A DNA stretch of 27,154 bases from positions 1 through 27,154 of IMG/VR virus record IMGVR_UViG_3300037207_000054; one strand, 5' to 3'. How positions within the stretch are numbered: the first letter of the stretch is position 1; each line of letters starts with the position of its first letter. Shown one piece after another: positions 8,057 to 18,309 of this stretch. The notes beneath the pieces were generated by a model, which saw only the letters and a program-made list of their open reading frames with translations, was not told where the DNA came from and ran no database searches. Made by a program: the position numbers and the translations under genes. This DNA comes from a virus.

Positions 8057-8352
8057 AGCTGCGAATGACTGACTACACCAACACATTGAAGCCCTGCCGC
8101 GAGTGCAAATGGTTTTCTCGTGGAGGCGACGACGGCAACACGTGCACCAATGTTCTATACCGCAAGTTCGATGTCGTTGACGGCTGGTATGCGCAACAGG
8201 CCCGGACTGTCCGGGAGGCCGAAGAGATGTGCGGGACCACGGGCGAGGGCTGGGAGCCGCGCGTCGAGAAGCCGGACTACCTTGGATATATCTTCGGCGG
8301 GATTTTCGTGTTGCTGATCGTCGCATGGGTAGCGAAGGCCTATATCCCATGA
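8053..8352 (+). CDS. Zinc-knuckle protein with C-terminal membrane helix
   Basis: 99 residues. CRECKWF at about 16-22 and TCTN about 12 residues on, plus MCGTTGEGWEP near 70, provide four cysteines in a layout seen in small phage metal-binding proteins. Residues 81-98 (IFGGIFVLLIVAWVAKAY) form a single membrane helix, so the zinc-knuckle part probably faces the cytoplasm. The start at 8053 (ATGA) is chosen over 8044. Function unknown. Confidence 0.6.
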   Translation: MKLRMTDYTNTLKPCRECKWFSRGGDDGNTCTNVLYRKFDVVDGWYAQQARTVREAEEMCGTTGEGWEPRVEKPDYLGYIFGGIFVLLIVAWVAKAYIP

Positions 8353-8726
8353 GGATGATCAAGAACACCAAGCTCCATGACTGCGGCGTCTGCGCCGTGG
8401 CCAATCTGCTCGACATCTCGTGGAGAGCTGCCGCTCATCGCATATGGGGCAACGCGCACTACAACAGGCTCAGGTTCAACACCCGGACAAAACAGGTTGC
8501 AACCGCGATCGACATCACGAAGCCAAAGCTGATCCGCGTCAAGAGCTGGCACGACATTCCACCCGAGCGCGCGATCGTCAAGGTGATCCCTCCTGAGTGC
8601 GAGGGCGGCTACGACTGGCATTGGGTCGTCTGGCGCGACGGAAAAGTTTGGGATAGCTGCTTGACACGCGCCAGCAAGCCGGAGCACTATGAGTGCCGGC
8701 TTGTTTCATACCTTGGGGGTGCATGA
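8349..8726 (+). CDS. Papain-like / C39-type cysteine peptidase fold
   Basis: 125 residues. DCGVCAVANLLDISW at 11-25 matches the catalytic Cys-Gly helix of C39/papain-like peptidases (Cys12 as nucleophile). DWHWVVWRDGKVWDSC at 89-104 supplies the His (His91) and the Asp (Asp102) in the usual HW.V..DG.V.D order. Such domains cut leader peptides or act as host-directed proteases; no substrate is evident here. Start by ATGA overlap with the previous gene. Confidence 0.65.
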   Translation: MRMIKNTKLHDCGVCAVANLLDISWRAAAHRIWGNAHYNRLRFNTRTKQVATAIDITKPKLIRVKSWHDIPPERAIVKVIPPECEGGYDWHWVVWRDGKVWDSCLTRASKPEHYECRLVSYLGGA

Positions 8727-8989: not shown

Positions 8990-9172
8990 ATGCGTGAGTT
9001 TCGCACTCAGGACGGAACGATCATCCATCTGCCCGATACGGTGCAGCGTTCGGGGATGGATACAATCCCACTGGAGCCGTGCGACTGTCACGTGCGACTG
9101 GGCAACGATTTCTATTTCCTGCCAACCGGTTCGTGCCTGCGAAAAGACGGAAAGTGCAACGAAGATGAGTGA
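8990..9172 (+). CDS. Hypothetical Cys-rich protein, 60 residues
   Basis: MREFRTQDGTIIHLPDTVQR and a Cys-rich second half (PCDCHVRLGNDFYF, GSCLRKDGKC). TTAGGGA precedes the ATG. Probably a small beta protein, perhaps metal- or disulfide-stabilised. Not recognised. Confidence 0.55.
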   Translation: MREFRTQDGTIIHLPDTVQRSGMDTIPLEPCDCHVRLGNDFYFLPTGSCLRKDGKCNEDE

Positions 9173-9371
9173 CCCGATCAGCAAGCAGTTTTCGCCCGAG
9201 CTTTTGGACGCGGGCGCCGACGAAGCGATGCGCCGGGCCGGGATCGAACTCTGCGATGGACATCATGTCCGGGCCTTGGACCTGCAAAAGCGCGCTGACA
9301 CGTTTCGGCGAGCGGCGCGTGAGCGAGACCGTGAATTGGACCGTGAATTGGATGAAGCGAGGGCGCGGTGA
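9165..9371 (+). CDS. Hypothetical helical protein
   Basis: 68 residues (MSDPISKQFSPELLDAGADE...) ending in the charged repeat RDRELDRELDEARAR, probably a coiled coil. It overlaps the preceding gene by 8 nt. Not recognised. Confidence 0.5.
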   Translation: MSDPISKQFSPELLDAGADEAMRRAGIELCDGHHVRALDLQKRADTFRRAARERDRELDRELDEARAR

Positions 9372-9838
9372 TGGCCGACTTATCCGAGGACGAACTCTAT
9401 GCCATGGAGCGGGCGCATCGCGCCGACGAGACCGAACGTTGCGCGCTGCTCTGCGAAATGCGCGCGGATATCAGCATCGTCAGTGCCGATCGTGTTCGCA
9501 AGGAGGGCACGTTCACTGCCCGGGCGATCTGGCCCCCGTTCAAGAAGACCACGCATGTCGCGCCCAAGTGGGAGTACAACGCCCATTTACTCGAAGAGGT
9601 CGCCAAGGCGTTCCGCGTCGTCGCCAATTGCATCCGCAAGGGATATGATCCGCGCGAATTGAAGCGCGATCCGAACGAACAGATCAGGGTCCACGCGGCC
9701 CCAACGAACGAAGCCGAGAGGCTCGACGCGATCCGCGCTGCGCACGGGCTGGAGCCGGACGCGTGGGTCCCGTGTTCTCGTTGCATTGAGCCAGCGGACT
9801 GCGCGTCGTGGCAGGCGTGCGAGAAGGGCATCACCTAA
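9371..9838 (+). CDS. Hypothetical protein with C-terminal Cys cluster
   Basis: 155 residues from ATG 9371; a GTG at 9368 also forms a GTGA overlap. ADETERCALLCEMRAD is followed by a helical middle and a tail VPCSRCIEPADCASWQACEKG with four cysteines (C-x2-C-x5-C-x5-C), a possible metal site. No family recognised. Confidence 0.55.
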   Translation: MADLSEDELYAMERAHRADETERCALLCEMRADISIVSADRVRKEGTFTARAIWPPFKKTTHVAPKWEYNAHLLEEVAKAFRVVANCIRKGYDPRELKRDPNEQIRVHAAPTNEAERLDAIRAAHGLEPDAWVPCSRCIEPADCASWQACEKGIT

Positions 9839-14912: not shown

Positions 14913-15091
14913 GCACCCGCCAAGACATCGTTGCTCACGTCAATGAGCTGGAGCGTCGCGCGATCGGCGGCGACACGTTCGCGGTCAAGACTTTGGCTTG
15001 CATGGTTCTGTTGATAGAGGGCTTCGATGACGGTGACCCCGACCCGGGAGAAGAACTCCCCGACAATATCATCCTCTTCCGCGTTGCGTGA
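14909..15091 (+). CDS. Hypothetical acidic protein
   Basis: 60 residues from ATG 14909 (MSTRQDIVAHVNELERRAIG...), helical then acidic (FDDGDPDPGEELPDN). An upstream ATG at 14891 is less likely because 14909 forms ATGA with the preceding stop. Not recognised. Confidence 0.5.
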   Translation: MSTRQDIVAHVNELERRAIGGDTFAVKTLACMVLLIEGFDDGDPDPGEELPDNIILFRVA

Positions 15092-15092
15092 C

Positions 15093-15260
15093 ATGCACGC
15101 CTATGTCTTCACCTACCACGCCGACTGGGAAGCCCCTTGCTATGAGCGAACAGTCCCGGCCGATCGTTGTGGCCTCGCCATTGCATGGCGATGGATCGAA
15201 GCCAGTGGCCGACCCGGCTTCATCAGCGTCGGATGCCTCCCTCCGCACTACTACTATTGA
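15093..15260 (+). CDS. Hypothetical 55-residue protein
   Basis: MHAYVFTYHADWEAPCYERT..., ending GCLPPHYYY. The composition looks protein-like. It overlaps the first 119 nt of the HNH frame, so either that gene starts later or the overlap is real. Confidence 0.5.
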   Translation: MHAYVFTYHADWEAPCYERTVPADRCGLAIAWRWIEASGRPGFISVGCLPPHYYY

Positions 15261-15630
15261 ACACCGCATTTGGCTCGACGTTGAGGCAGGCATTTACGCC
15301 ACGGTCTCATTCGAGGACTATGCGTGGGCGCTTCAGTGGAAGTGGCAGATCACGTGGGACCGGCACAAACGCAAAGCGTATGCGACGCGCTCGACCCATG
15401 CCGGTCCGCGCCGGATCAAGCTCTATCTCCACAAGGAAATCTTGGTCCGCTCAATGAAGCTCCCACCCTGCGGAAAGCACGTCATGGGCGACCACGGCGA
15501 CGGCGACAGCCTGAATTGCCGGCGGGACAACCTCGAATGGGCGACCCCCTCCCAGAATAGGCGTACAGCGCGTTCTCCGGTCCGCCCAGCGCGGTCCAAG
15601 ACGCCGCCCCCAGAAGACATCCCCTTTTAA
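15142..15630 (+). CDS. HNH endonuclease (homing-type) with SSB-like tail
   Basis: 162 residues from ATG 15142. The core is HVMGDHGDGDSLNCRRDNLE (residues 113-132) followed by WATPSQNRRT: Asp117-His118, the conserved Asn-Leu region and Asn139 of HNH nucleases that resemble freestanding phage homing endonucleases. The preceding segment (WLDVEAGIYATVSFEDYAWA) may be a DNA-recognition domain. The tail EDIPF copies the SSB tip. The N-terminal 39 residues overlap another gene, so a later start (for example ATT 15256) is possible. Confidence 0.75.
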   Translation: MSEQSRPIVVASPLHGDGSKPVADPASSASDASLRTTTIEHRIWLDVEAGIYATVSFEDYAWALQWKWQITWDRHKRKAYATRSTHAGPRRIKLYLHKEILVRSMKLPPCGKHVMGDHGDGDSLNCRRDNLEWATPSQNRRTARSPVRPARSKTPPPEDIPF

Positions 15631-15680
15631 TGGGTTGATACCGGGCCACGGCTGCTTGAATGAACCCACTATAAAGCAAA

Positions 15681-15720
15681 ACGCCCCAGCCTTGCGGCTA
15701 GGGCGTCTGGGGTCTTTCTG
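15681..15720. terminator. Bidirectional terminator
   Basis: ACGCCCCAGCC-TTGC-GGCTAGGGCGT (15681-15707), one mismatch. T-rich tracts follow on both strands: CTTTCTG on plus, TTTTGCTTT on minus. It ends the right-going operon and the minus-strand tmRNA. Confidence 0.75.
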
Positions 15721-16101
15721 TTGCTAGGCGACCAACCCCGGAACGTTACGCCGCGAGGCGCTGATCCATGACAAAGTTGTCGTTGTCATTTAGGTGTTTG
15801 ATCCGATCGCGGCAGATCACGCCGAGTTCACTTTCGAGACTTTCCGAGCGTCCATCGATCCTGTGTCGCCCCCATCAGAAGCAGCGCGTGTTCCCCGAGG
15901 GGTGTACGCACATTTAGTGCAAGGCATCCATGCCTCATCGCGCTGCTCGTGGTGGAGGCGCCGGGTACTGCCCCCGGGTCTGACCGCAGTCCGTCTCAAC
16001 ATTCAGAACCATCACGCTCGATTGGTCAACCGCTCGCTACCCATCCCTCTTTGCGCACCTTGGTACGTGAGGGCCAAAGCCTCGTCCGTTGTATCGATCG
16101 C
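15708..16101 (-). ncRNA. ssrA: Circularly permuted two-piece tmRNA
   Basis: Read on the minus strand, the acceptor piece comes first and ends CGCCTCC-ACCA (15960-15950), preceded by a T-arm-like CCGGG-GGCAGTA-CCCGG. A 76-nt spacer follows, then the coding piece starts GGGGGCG (15873-15867). These pair over seven bases with a G-U at the third pair, the alanine identity mark. The coding piece continues ACACAGGATCGATGG, like the tmRNA 5' domain, and then an ORF with codons for NDNDNFVMDQRLAA and TAA (15790-15746). This order (3' end before 5' end) is the alphaproteobacterial permuted form. The resume codon may be CTA (15793-15791) or AAT. The 5' limit is set by the promoter and the 3' limit by the terminator. 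Confidence 0.85.
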
Positions 16102-16107
16102 ACCCGA

Positions 16108-16136
16108 AGACTAGACCGATGTGTGAGGCGTGTCAA
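16108..16136 (-). promoter_or_regulatory. tmRNA promoter
   Basis: Minus-strand TTGACA (16136-16131), 17 bp, TAGTCT (16113-16108), consensus-like. Transcription would begin near 16101, just ahead of the acceptor piece. Confidence 0.65.
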
Positions 16137-16344
16137 GAGGGAGAAATGTGCAGGCGGTTCGCGAGGCCGCAACGTTGGTTCGTCCCCCGATGAATGTGAT
16201 TGAGTGCGTAGAGGTCCGATCTGATCAGCAACCGGGTCGCCGCGTCTCTCGTCACACGTCTTGCCCTCGGGATTAGCGGGGCGCCGGCTGTTCCCCTGTC
16301 CGCGTCTAGAACACTTCGGGGGTTACGTCTTCCGGCCACTGCAC
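16137..16344 (-). ncRNA. Candidate structured RNA upstream of tmRNA
   Basis: About 208 nt between two promoters. A compound hairpin pairs GCCGG (16336-16332) with CCGGC (16287-16283) and CCCC (near 16321) with GGGG (16296-16293). An Arg-rich frame of 68 residues (16133-16339) lacks a ribosome site and looks like chance. Probably a leader or a small RNA; no family recognised. Confidence 0.3.
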
Positions 16345-16350
16345 GTGAGA

Positions 16351-16379
16351 AGCCTACGCACGGGAACGGAAGGTGTCAA
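16351..16379 (-). promoter_or_regulatory. Promoter upstream of the tmRNA region
   Basis: Minus-strand TTGACA (16379-16374), 17 bp, TAGGCT (16356-16351). It lies just after the likely terminator of the ParB-like gene, so it starts a separate unit. Confidence 0.55.
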
Positions 16380-16391
16380 GCACAATAAGAT

Positions 16392-16419
16392 GCGCGCCGA
16401 GGCGGAGACCCCGGCGCGC
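16392..16419 (-). terminator. Likely terminator after the ParB-like gene
   Basis: GCGCGCCG / CGGCGCGC, an 8-bp GC stem with a 12-nt loop, followed on the minus strand by ATCTTATTG. The T-run is imperfect. A smaller hairpin (16468-16484) overlaps the end of the gene itself. Confidence 0.5.
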
Positions 16420-16467
16420 TGTTTAGCCACTCGGTCATTCGCGACCGGCTCCGAGTAGGAGTAGGTA

Positions 16468-17466
16468 TCAGGCCGCTTCGGCCTGAGCTTCCACGAGACA
16501 GGGGAAGAAGGTTTCGATAACCACCTTCTTATGGGACGGCCTGTCAACTGACGCCTCACGGCGGCGCAAGAAGAGGCTGAGCGCCTTGGCTCCGACCTCA
16601 TACCACGTCTCCCGCGACTGTGTCTTGTCGTCGGACGCAGCAAGAACATCGTCGTTGACCATCGTCCACATCTTGATCACGGGGGACTTCGACACGAGAT
16701 CGCTCCCGGCGACGATAATCTCCCCTTCGTACTTGATGACGGTGTCCCAGAACTTGTAGACCTCATCAACGCTCTCGCCATCGCCCCGCTTGTGCGGGGT
16801 TAAACGAGCGCGGTAGAGCGTGAGCAGCACGGCCATCTGAAAGCCGGGATAGGATACGACCCGGCTATTGGCCGGAACGTTATTGTCGGACATGAGCTTA
16901 TCCAAAAGCCGAAGCTCATGAATGAACTCAGTGACCATGGTCTCGGTCCGCCAACAGGCGGAATTGGAAGCCTGACCGAGTAACGCCCGCCATGCGAGAG
17001 CAAGACCGGACGTACCGCGCCCTGACCTGTACATCTTCGACCGCACGCCAACTCCGCAAGCCTTGAATGCAGAAGTCAGCTTGTCCGCTGCGCCCTTGCT
17101 CGAAGAAGTGTTGTCAATGCTGTTATACATTTCCTGAGCTTCCTCCTTCGTTGAGCAAATGTACTTGTCGCCGAGCACTTCTTCGGGGAAGTGCTTGGCG
17201 AAGTCCTTGCGCCGTACCGTCATCTCGGCTTCGTCGAGAGGCATATGGTTCATGACGTGCGCGCGAGTGTTGCCGTTAATCCGGCTCTCTTCGCCGCCTA
17301 CGACCACGGTCGCCCATCCAGTCTTGATGGTTGCGTTCGTCGCATCAAAATCCTTGCGCGCGAGGTACTTCGCAACCCGCTTGTCGGTATCGCGCTGACC
17401 TTCCCACTCCGGGAGGGCGAGCATCTGTTTCTTAGACCACTTGGCCTGAACAACACGTACTGTCAT
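16468..17466 (-). CDS. Hypothetical protein, ParB/Srx-like N-terminus
   Basis: 332 residues. Early residues VAKYLARKDFDATNATIKTG then VVVGGEESRINGNTRAHVMN (about 31-75) resemble the ParB/sulfiredoxin-fold G.xxxxNGNTR nucleotide-site motif found in several phage proteins; the rest, helical with many Lys/Arg, is not recognised. No Shine-Dalgarno precedes the ATG; instead a hairpin (17472-17498) ends 5 nt before it. The promoter carries three palindromic sites. Its expression is thus likely controlled at both transcription and translation. Function is unproven. Confidence 0.55.
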   Translation of the reverse strand: MTVRVVQAKWSKKQMLALPEWEGQRDTDKRVAKYLARKDFDATNATIKTGWATVVVGGEESRINGNTRAHVMNHMPLDEAEMTVRRKDFAKHFPEEVLGDKYICSTKEEAQEMYNSIDNTSSSKGAADKLTSAFKACGVGVRSKMYRSGRGTSGLALAWRALLGQASNSACWRTETMVTEFIHELRLLDKLMSDNNVPANSRVVSYPGFQMAVLLTLYRARLTPHKRGDGESVDEVYKFWDTVIKYEGEIIVAGSDLVSKSPVIKMWTMVNDDVLAASDDKTQSRETWYEVGAKALSLFLRRREASVDRPSHKKVVIETFFPCLVEAQAEAA

Positions 17467-17604: not shown

Positions 17605-18279
17605 CTATTTGGTCGGCTTCATCCTTCGGGCGGCCTCGATCTGCTCCGGGGTCAGGGCAGTGAACTTCTCGCCTCGCAAGCTGTACTGCCAACGGACTTT
17701 CGCGGATGCGATAGCGTCGGTCGTCCCCTCCGGCGTGAGGTTTTTGTCATTACGGCGGTACACCTTCCGACCATTCTTGACCCAATCTTGATCCGCTACT
17801 GTGCGGGTTCGAAGACGCGGACGGCTGATCGCTACCGGGGTCCAATTAGTTGCTTTGTAGATCGTGCCGGTATGCTTGACGAACCCTACTGAGTTAGGGG
17901 CGCCTTCACCGAGGTCCTGATAAGAGACGAGCGTTGTCGCTTTGCCTTCTCTCTTGAACCATCTGACCATTTGGCCGATCATGATGGACGCCGTATTCGG
18001 TGGCGCGTACATGCTGGCGACAGCCATGCGCCGCAACTCAGTCCAGTCTTGCGGGAGGTTTCGCGCTGAGCAGTTATGCCAGAGTGCAGCCGCCATGAGG
18101 TAGCCGCCCTGATCGAACGCCCCAAACGCGATCTTGAAAGGCCCATCGCAATTGGGCAAACGACTGTGCCACATCTTGATGAACGCACGGGCTTGGGCAA
18201 CGGGGATTTGTTTGATATGGAGCGACCGGGTCGGAATTGCACCGCCATCTTCCCCAGTGGACCCGGGGTGCTCTAACAT
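17605..18279 (-). CDS. Mom-like DNA-modification protein (GNAT fold)
   Basis: The frame is open to an ATG at 18309, but that ATG lies in a promoter and a tRNA-like gene covers 18218-18293, so the start is unsure (ATG 18279, or a rare start near 18220-18237). The pattern ELRRMAV, PPNTASIMIGQMVRWFK, TLVSYQD and HTGTIYKATNW follows phage Mu Mom (ELNRMW, PRNSES, QSFAD, GTVYQA). Mom is a GNAT-fold enzyme that converts adenine in phage DNA to a carbamoylmethyl form, blocking restriction. XF1762-like acetyltransferases are the main alternative. The C-terminal 60 residues are basic, for DNA contact. Confidence 0.6.
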   Translation of the reverse strand: MLEHPGSTGEDGGAIPTRSLHIKQIPVAQARAFIKMWHSRLPNCDGPFKIAFGAFDQGGYLMAAALWHNCSARNLPQDWTELRRMAVASMYAPPNTASIMIGQMVRWFKREGKATTLVSYQDLGEGAPNSVGFVKHTGTIYKATNWTPVAISRPRLRTRTVADQDWVKNGRKVYRRNDKNLTPEGTTDAIASAKVRWQYSLRGEKFTALTPEQIEAARRMKPTK

Positions 18280-18293
18280 TGAGCTACAGTCGC
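18218..18293 (-). tRNA. tRNA-Gly(UCC)-like gene
   Basis: Minus strand, 76 nt: acceptor GCGACTG pairs with CGGTCGC over seven bases (one G-U), then U73 and encoded CCA. D-arm TA-GCTC-AATGTTA-GAGC; anticodon arm CCCCG-GGTCCAC-TGGGG; variable AAGAT; T-arm GGCGG-TGCAATT-CCG(A)CC with one bulged A. G1-C72, C2-G71, C35, C36 and U73 are glycine identity elements. Unlike normal tRNAs, position 33 is G and D-loop G19 is replaced by U, so its decoding ability is doubtful. Confidence 0.7.
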
Positions 18294-18309
18294 GAACTTC
18301 GTCTACCAT

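Follow-up and report, generated by a model that had tools for sequence, protein, structure and literature searches.

A phage-borne two-piece tmRNA of the alphaproteobacterial type and the phage-enriched helix in its intervening segment

INTRODUCTION

The viral DNA analysed here, a stretch of 27,154 nt from IMG/VR virus record IMGVR_UViG_3300037207_000054 (the window), offers an intact gene under selection on which to ask why bacteriophages carry tmRNA genes. A preliminary description of the window, made from its letters, placed a circularly permuted tmRNA with its own promoter and tag on the minus strand. Passages of earlier papers report tmRNA in 402 of 18,146 phage genomes, with 53 two-piece structures according to ARAGORN, and a two-piece tmRNA in the Methylophilales phage Melnitz (PMC9004378); they also count 79 bacteriophage tmRNA sequences and define the intervening sequence (PMC11915505), and describe tmRNA in Bradyrhizobium elkanii phages (PMC12656738). 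The maturation of E. coli tmRNA is attributed there to RNase P, plus RNase III or E (PMC3968760). Is the window's gene a working phage tmRNA, and what is the segment between its two halves?

MATERIALS AND METHODS

Contigs were taken as viral on IMG/VR's call; two of them, L072 and L128, share tags with bacterial genomes and may be host DNA. The viral examples, among the matches listed, were gathered by exact sequence patterns placed in the tmRNA core rather than in the intervening segment. A tmRNA was located by a stricter filter in 206 of 274 non-bacterial loci, a set in which many members may have none; this filter forms the basis of the count of 166 viral segments. The 92 bacterial loci are a non-random sample, composed of the 30 best-scoring loci, 60 from the same Rfam list (among the matches listed) and 2 from another; 30 low-scoring bacterial loci come mostly from small genomes. 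With a relaxed filter, an encoded CCA was located in 89 of the 92 and in 19 of the 30 low-scoring loci, the rest having no CCA or not being found. The phage sequences are related to each other, which grouping into 82 clusters lessens and does not remove. One of the four matching Melnitz records was examined.

RESULTS

Identity and parts of the gene

The Infernal check that the preliminary description had proposed gives a clear match: the alpha_tmRNA model RF01849 aligns over its full length to window positions 16070-15706 on the minus strand, at 120.7 bits (cut-off 50, E 9.9e-33). The tmRNA_permuted model RF04321 likewise matches 16010-15746 (minus strand) over its full length, at 110.7 bits (cut-off 47). 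The parts of the gene are:

15706-16070, minus strand: permuted pre-tmRNA (ssrA), the RF01849 match
15950-15977, minus strand: T arm (15977-15961), acceptor 3' strand CGCCTCC (15960-15954), A73 and the encoded CCA (15953-15950)
15874-15949, minus strand: intervening segment of 76 nt, expected to be missing from the mature two-piece form
15867-15873, minus strand: acceptor 5' strand GGGGGCG, the start of the mRNA-like piece, from the Rfam match and a pattern
15716-15724, minus strand: conserved GCAACAGAA close to the 3' end, from the RF01849 alignment

The acceptor is therefore laid out as originally read, with CGCCTCC-A-CCA (15960-15950) ahead of GGGGGCG (15873-15867) and 76 nt between them, and its strands form 7 pairs that include G3-U70, the G-U third pair. 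The Rfam model alignment also places in the gene the stem that joins the two tmRNA pieces. The two model matches, the acceptor order and this joining helix uphold the assignment to the alphaproteobacterial permuted type. The score of 120.7 bits is lower than those of bacterial genomes, which reach 240-313 bits in the best rows among the matches listed and 143-206 bits in the low-scoring set, indicating that parts of the gene have diverged. Overall, the gene is a real phage tmRNA of a known kind, and very probably a functional one.

Phage context and relatives

The gene had been called phage-borne, and its surroundings agree. In particular, phage genes lie on both sides of it, and the window matches an 84,382-bp IMG/VR contig with 99.86% identity over 14,343 bases and 100% over 12,817, the two pieces resulting from fetching that contig in parts. 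The contig encodes a portal protein, large terminase, head scaffolding protein, DNA polymerase and helicase; the window encodes a primase, a Mom-like protein, an exonuclease and an HNH protein. A megablast search of phage sequences with the window as query returned no match. A primase search led to a 93,824-bp contig (54% identity) in which a tmRNA of 116.7 bits is found downstream of its primase, on the same strand. A pattern in the mRNA-like piece, combined with tmRNA comparison, identified a further contig of 83,932 bp; here the primase shares 63% identity with the window's, and the tmRNA is some 2 kb downstream of that primase, again on the same strand. The tmRNA sits in the replication region of these three related phages. 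The tmRNAs of RcRudolph and RcSimone-Hastad also lie in a region with a primase and a Cas4-type exonuclease, as does that of a 64-kb contig whose primase is 35% identical.

No SmpB gene was found in the five phage records searched, which may be fragments and do not include the G008 relative; the phage tmRNA would therefore depend on host SmpB. The window's T-loop variant is present across many alphaproteobacterial groups among the matches listed, and the host bacterium is probably alphaproteobacterial.

Two other genes of this phage were recorded. An RtcB-type RNA ligase (phrog_1075) is encoded at L239:8658-9938 on the minus strand; a link between RtcB and tmRNA was rejected, RtcB being present in 5 of 30 tmRNA phage records and missing from the G008 relative. 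Between the tmRNA and the primase lies the Mom-like DNA modification gene (window 17605-18309, minus strand), whose frame overlaps a tRNA-Gly(tcc) at 18218-18293.

Transcription unit

Three elements delimit the gene:

16108-16136, minus strand: promoter-like site TTGACA-N17-TAGTCT, ending 37 nt ahead of the Rfam match
15679-15708, minus strand: terminator-like hairpin of 13 pairs by scan, then a T-rich tail
16392-16419, minus strand: terminator-like hairpin past the upstream reading frame, setting that frame apart from the tmRNA unit

The range first proposed for the gene, 15708-16136, thus opens with the TTGACA of the promoter-like site at 16136 and closes at 15708, where the terminator hairpin has its foot; the accompanying claim of an own promoter holds in the form of a promoter-like site accompanied by a terminator-like hairpin. 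The pattern TTGACA-N16-18-TAGNCT occurs twice in the window versus 0.02 times expected from a pattern count, and TTGACA-N17/18-TA(G/T)NCT recurs directly upstream of the tmRNA in both related phages. A generic sigma-70 scan over 15000-17000, with a threshold of 9 of 12 matches, detected no promoter-like site. The same interval contains four terminator-like sites versus a mean of 1.4 in shuffles, and, by inspection, the stem of the tmRNA's terminator-like hairpin is altered on both strands in the two relatives.

A second site, TTGACA-N17-TAGGCT at 16379-16351 (minus strand), lies past the upstream terminator-like hairpin and ahead of the tmRNA's promoter-like site. The roughly 215 nt that follow it have no assigned gene on that strand and perhaps hold another small RNA.

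Selection on the tmRNA

The preliminary description had tied the gene's standing to conserved pairing among related sequences, and such pairing was found, with compensatory changes in three phages. The RNAalifold alignment of the three contains 33 predicted pairs, nine of which are changed on both sides, six of these without any broken pair; acceptor pair 5-68, compensated in a relative, is among the six. Further, the joining stem reads GAGA/TCTC in the window versus ACGA/TCGT in the 94-kb relative, amounting to two double changes. Covariation contributes little to the energy of the three-phage fold (-1.33 of -42.6 kcal/mol). Because an intact gene has been kept with compensatory changes, selection acts on the phage tmRNA.

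These data bear on a different origin, in which a host ssrA fragment was acquired by imprecise excision or integration and is now functionless. ssrA does serve as an attachment site for prophages and islands, according to passages of PMC9004378 and PMC11915505, but an idle fragment is hard to reconcile with compensatory changes, an open tag frame, a promoter-like site and a terminator-like hairpin all kept across three phages with primase identities to the window of 54-63%. The nearest tmRNAs to the window's are, within the set compared, viral. Captured host ssrA, or contamination, was rejected on the phage genes flanking both sides, the 99.9% match to the 84-kb phage contig and the lack of an integrase in the four phage records searched, which may be fragments; we consider capture highly improbable.

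Tag frame and resume codon

15746-15787, minus strand: tag reading frame DNDNFVMDQRLAA-stop, with the likely resume codon GAC at 15787-15785

The reading frame NDNDNFVMDQRLAA-stop of the preliminary description is present in the window. Its suggestion of CTA as the resume codon fares less well than GAC, which is preceded by CTAAAT, with T at -5 and A at -4. A tag was called in 147 of 163 distinct viral tmRNAs among the matches listed; within those 147, T at -5 together with A at -4 precedes the resume codon in 116, and A at -4 alone is found in 132. The window's CTAAAT/GAC AAC GAC AAC TTT lines up with ATAAAT/GCC AAC GAC AAC in RcSimone-Hastad and RcRudolph, CTAAAT/GCA is seen in other viral tmRNAs, and the 94-kb relative reads GTC/GCA AAC AAC GAC at this position. 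Two tag-calling scripts disagreed: one returned GAC and the other CTA (context AAACAC, with A at -4 and no T at -5), the latter scoring CTA and GAC equally and retaining the first found. AAT and CTA were put aside for GAC on upstream context, a judgement from which the tie in the second script departs. From these contexts, GAC is more likely than CTA to be the resume codon.

GAC instead of GCN at the resume position is unusual, and the window seems to stand alone in this respect within the tag-called viral set: by their printed contexts, in the eight viral entries whose first codon is not one for Ala (L013, L188 and six with SNDNV tags), an in-frame GCA stands directly before that codon. Elsewhere, the bacterial entry L353 has GGC as its first tag codon, and the EliS-L02 tag starts with V according to ARAGORN.

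The window's tag is predicted to read A-DNDNFVMDQRLAA. It ends in CTC GCG GCG TAA, which encodes a hydrophobic residue, Ala-Ala and a stop in an intact frame; LAA ends are found in 117 of the 147 tag-called viral tmRNAs among the matches listed. By analogy with known tmRNA biology, the tag would drive degradation by ClpXP, and it could in this way steer proteolysis during infection, as the preliminary description supposed. The frame also informs on whether the RNA is a decoy, binding host SmpB or AlaRS and so inhibiting trans-translation. A precedent is found in mycobacteriophage DS6A, whose tag-less form inhibits endogenous tmRNA in E. coli (in a passage of PMC11915505); however, the DS6A form has no tag frame, whereas the window's frame is intact, with an LAA end and a conserved resume context, making a decoy very unlikely.

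The intervening segment

The structure of the intervening segment went unmentioned in the preliminary description and is the part hardest to match to anything in print. It contains a helix that extends the acceptor stem:

15939-15948, minus strand: 5' strand of the acceptor-extending helix, GAGCAGCGCG
15879-15888, minus strand: 3' strand of the acceptor-extending helix, CGCGCTGCTT
15874-15878, minus strand: linker CTGAT, whose TGAT faces ACCA (A73-U, C74/A mismatch, C75-G, A76-U)

The window precursor folds into the acceptor stem, A73-U, a C/A mismatch, C-G, A-U, a C/C mismatch and ten pairs, with a z of -2.54; 7 of 200 shuffles fold equally well. Relatives keep the helix with other letters (GGACAGCGCGA/TCGCGCTGTCT and GGACAGACAGG/CCTGTCTGTCT). 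The structure line of RF01849 models no pairs in this segment.

The same architecture is common in viral tmRNAs. Among the matches listed, viral segments have a median length of 86 nt and contain TGAT in 114 of 166 cases. In a somewhat narrower selection of the listed matches, 105 of 111 viral segments that reach 40 nt are closed at this place by a stem of six or more Watson-Crick pairs (111 of 120 with the wider filter), versus 1.6% when all viral segments from 16 nt upward are shuffled. In viral segments of 16-39 nt the stem is mostly absent (9 of 38, among the matches listed). The 120 segments fall into 82 clusters; the stem predominates in 75 of these and TGAT in 65 (among the matches listed). 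All eight outer positions are paired in 66 of the 82 cluster representatives, versus a mean of 7.8 and a maximum of 15 when partners are shuffled. Bacterial genomes, among the matches listed, yield 87 distinct segments with a median of 33 nt, TGAT in 5 and a closing stem in 12 of 29 at or above 40 nt; the low-scoring bacterial set yields 17 with a median of 10 nt, TGAT in none and a closing stem in 2 of 2 at that length. Overall, the full signature (at least 40 nt, closing stem, TGAT) is found in 92 of 166 distinct viral versus 3 of 104 bacterial segments among the matches listed (Fisher p 7.6e-22, a value that ignores the relatedness of phage sequences).

Ten of the 11 phage-collection records examined have the helix, with an exact TGAT or not: EliS-L02, Cp1R7A-A1, MD18, DSS3_MAL1, DSS3P8, RpoS-V10, RcXuper, Melnitz, RcRudolph and RcSimone-Hastad. 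The linker varies to TGAC in EliS-L02 and TGCT in RcRudolph, and MT836065 has a 14-nt intervening segment and no helix. Some bacteria also have it, for example an Albidovulum MAG (L253); the helix is phage-enriched, not phage-exclusive.

Comparison of these sequences strongly supports a precursor helix that covaries, joins the tmRNA halves and continues the acceptor stem, and we infer that it is a phage-enriched maturation helix. This segment looks like a new part of the window tmRNA: the titles and abstract openings surveyed on tmRNA make no mention of such a helix, an earlier description being possible, and the words 'intervening', 'hairpin' and 'acceptor' are absent from the main text of PMC9004378.

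The tmRNA may instead work with a helix that has no dedicated processing role, uniting the acceptor strands during folding while the long form is kept by descent. Any closing stem would aid folding, and closing stems are present in both bacterial sets at 40 nt and above, as counted above; against this, TGAT opposite ACCA and a fixed spacing (mostly 0/4 or 1/5 nt) stay constant while the stem sequence varies, and TGAT predominates in 65 of the 82 clusters, which group segments unlike one another. We regard a purely structural helix as possible, at somewhat less than an even chance; it is compatible with the explanation that we favour in everything save the maturation step.

Detection and annotation

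Run on the window, ARAGORN reported only the tRNA-Gly(tcc) and missed the tmRNA. Among the matches listed, it detects 103 of 163 distinct viral two-piece loci versus 38 of 40 pattern-selected bacterial loci. All 20 rechecked examples of the 60 viral tmRNAs that it missed pass the RF01849 cut-off, two of them clipped by a contig end. Published counts based on ARAGORN, such as the 53 two-piece structures of PMC9004378, are probably too low. Among the phage annotation tables examined, a tmRNA is annotated only in the DSS3_MAL1 and Melnitz records.

Several further loci were noted. One 9.6-kb viral contig (L052) has two ARAGORN tmRNA genes, at 8159-8493 and 9090-9481, with tags ANDNFASEDYALAA and ANENFALAA, and the viral tmRNAs of L027, L029, L038 and L044 have a very long ARAGORN-predicted tag (ANDNALSNVTFVDFSAPVTAVNEDFALAA). 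A GOLLD RNA lies a few hundred bases upstream of the tmRNA in MD18, DSS3_MAL1, DSS3P8 and RpoS-V10 (L530-L533). In EliS-L02 (L528 2320-2769), the first gene annotated past the tmRNA encodes a proteasome subunit, and the RcRudolph tmRNA (L002 11924-12259) overlaps the hypothetical protein RCRUDOLPH_61, perhaps a false gene.

DISCUSSION

The window's gene is, with good confidence, a phage-encoded two-piece tmRNA expressed as its own short transcript. In its precursor, the 7-bp acceptor stem would extend via ACCA/UGAU into the 10-bp helix, a total of 20 pairs with a C/A mismatch and, in the window phage, one of C/C. The intervening hairpin would then be removed by RNase P and a host endonuclease, for which RNase III is a first guess, leaving a CCA-ended tRNA-like piece and an mRNA-like piece with a 5' G, joined by base pairs. 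Host AlaRS would charge the tmRNA through G3-U70 and host SmpB would deliver it; stalled ribosomes would be freed and A-DNDNFVMDQRLAA appended, whose LAA end would direct the proteins to ClpXP-type proteases. Ribosome rescue may in this manner be raised or taken over during infection.

Pairing of the CCA within the precursor could slow RNase P. More tentatively, phages of Alphaproteobacteria may possess a precursor design of their own, in which a long helix prolongs the acceptor stem by way of ACCA/UGAU and the CCA stays hidden until a double-strand nuclease cuts; the chance of this we put nearer to one in three than to one in two. If true, a phage-tagged rescue RNA would be matured and supplied by a route unused by most host tmRNAs, and a phage could time its production independently. 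The common intervening helix is a concrete mutational target in existing isolates, such as RcSimone-Hastad and DSS3P8.

The window's tmRNA gene itself is a further member of the already known phage-borne two-piece tmRNAs, among them those of Melnitz and DSS3_MAL1. The ssrA of Caulobacter is reportedly an alphaproteobacterial two-piece tmRNA, in work by Keiler and colleagues from 2000. With the alphaproteobacterial form (RF01849), the window's gene shares the gene order, G3-U70 acceptor, encoded CCA, T arm, stem joining the halves, LAA tag end and GCAACAGAA near the 3' end; in contrast, it resides in a phage, has a longer, closed intervening segment with TGAT and a lower model score, and probably has GAC where others have GCN at the resume position. 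Like the ssrA of Melnitz, it is phage-borne, two-piece and of the alphaproteobacterial type, lies among phage genes and is kept in related phages, and the Melnitz tmRNA has, in the present analysis, the intervening helix with an ATGAT linker. The two differ in their transcription: the Melnitz tmRNA is described, in a passage of PMC9004378, as belonging to one operon together with a glutamine riboswitch and a gene for a coactivator, whereas the window's is served by a promoter-like site and a terminator-like hairpin of its own, and Rfam found no riboswitch at cut-off in the window. Finally, the Roseobacter-type phages DSS3_MAL1, DSS3P8, RpoS-V10, MD18 and RcXuper, together with RcRudolph, RcSimone-Hastad, Mesorhizobium Cp1R7A-A1 and Erythrobacter EliS-L02, likewise have a two-piece tmRNA above the Rfam cut-off with an intervening helix; the window's phage differs from them in its tag and belongs to a different phage group.
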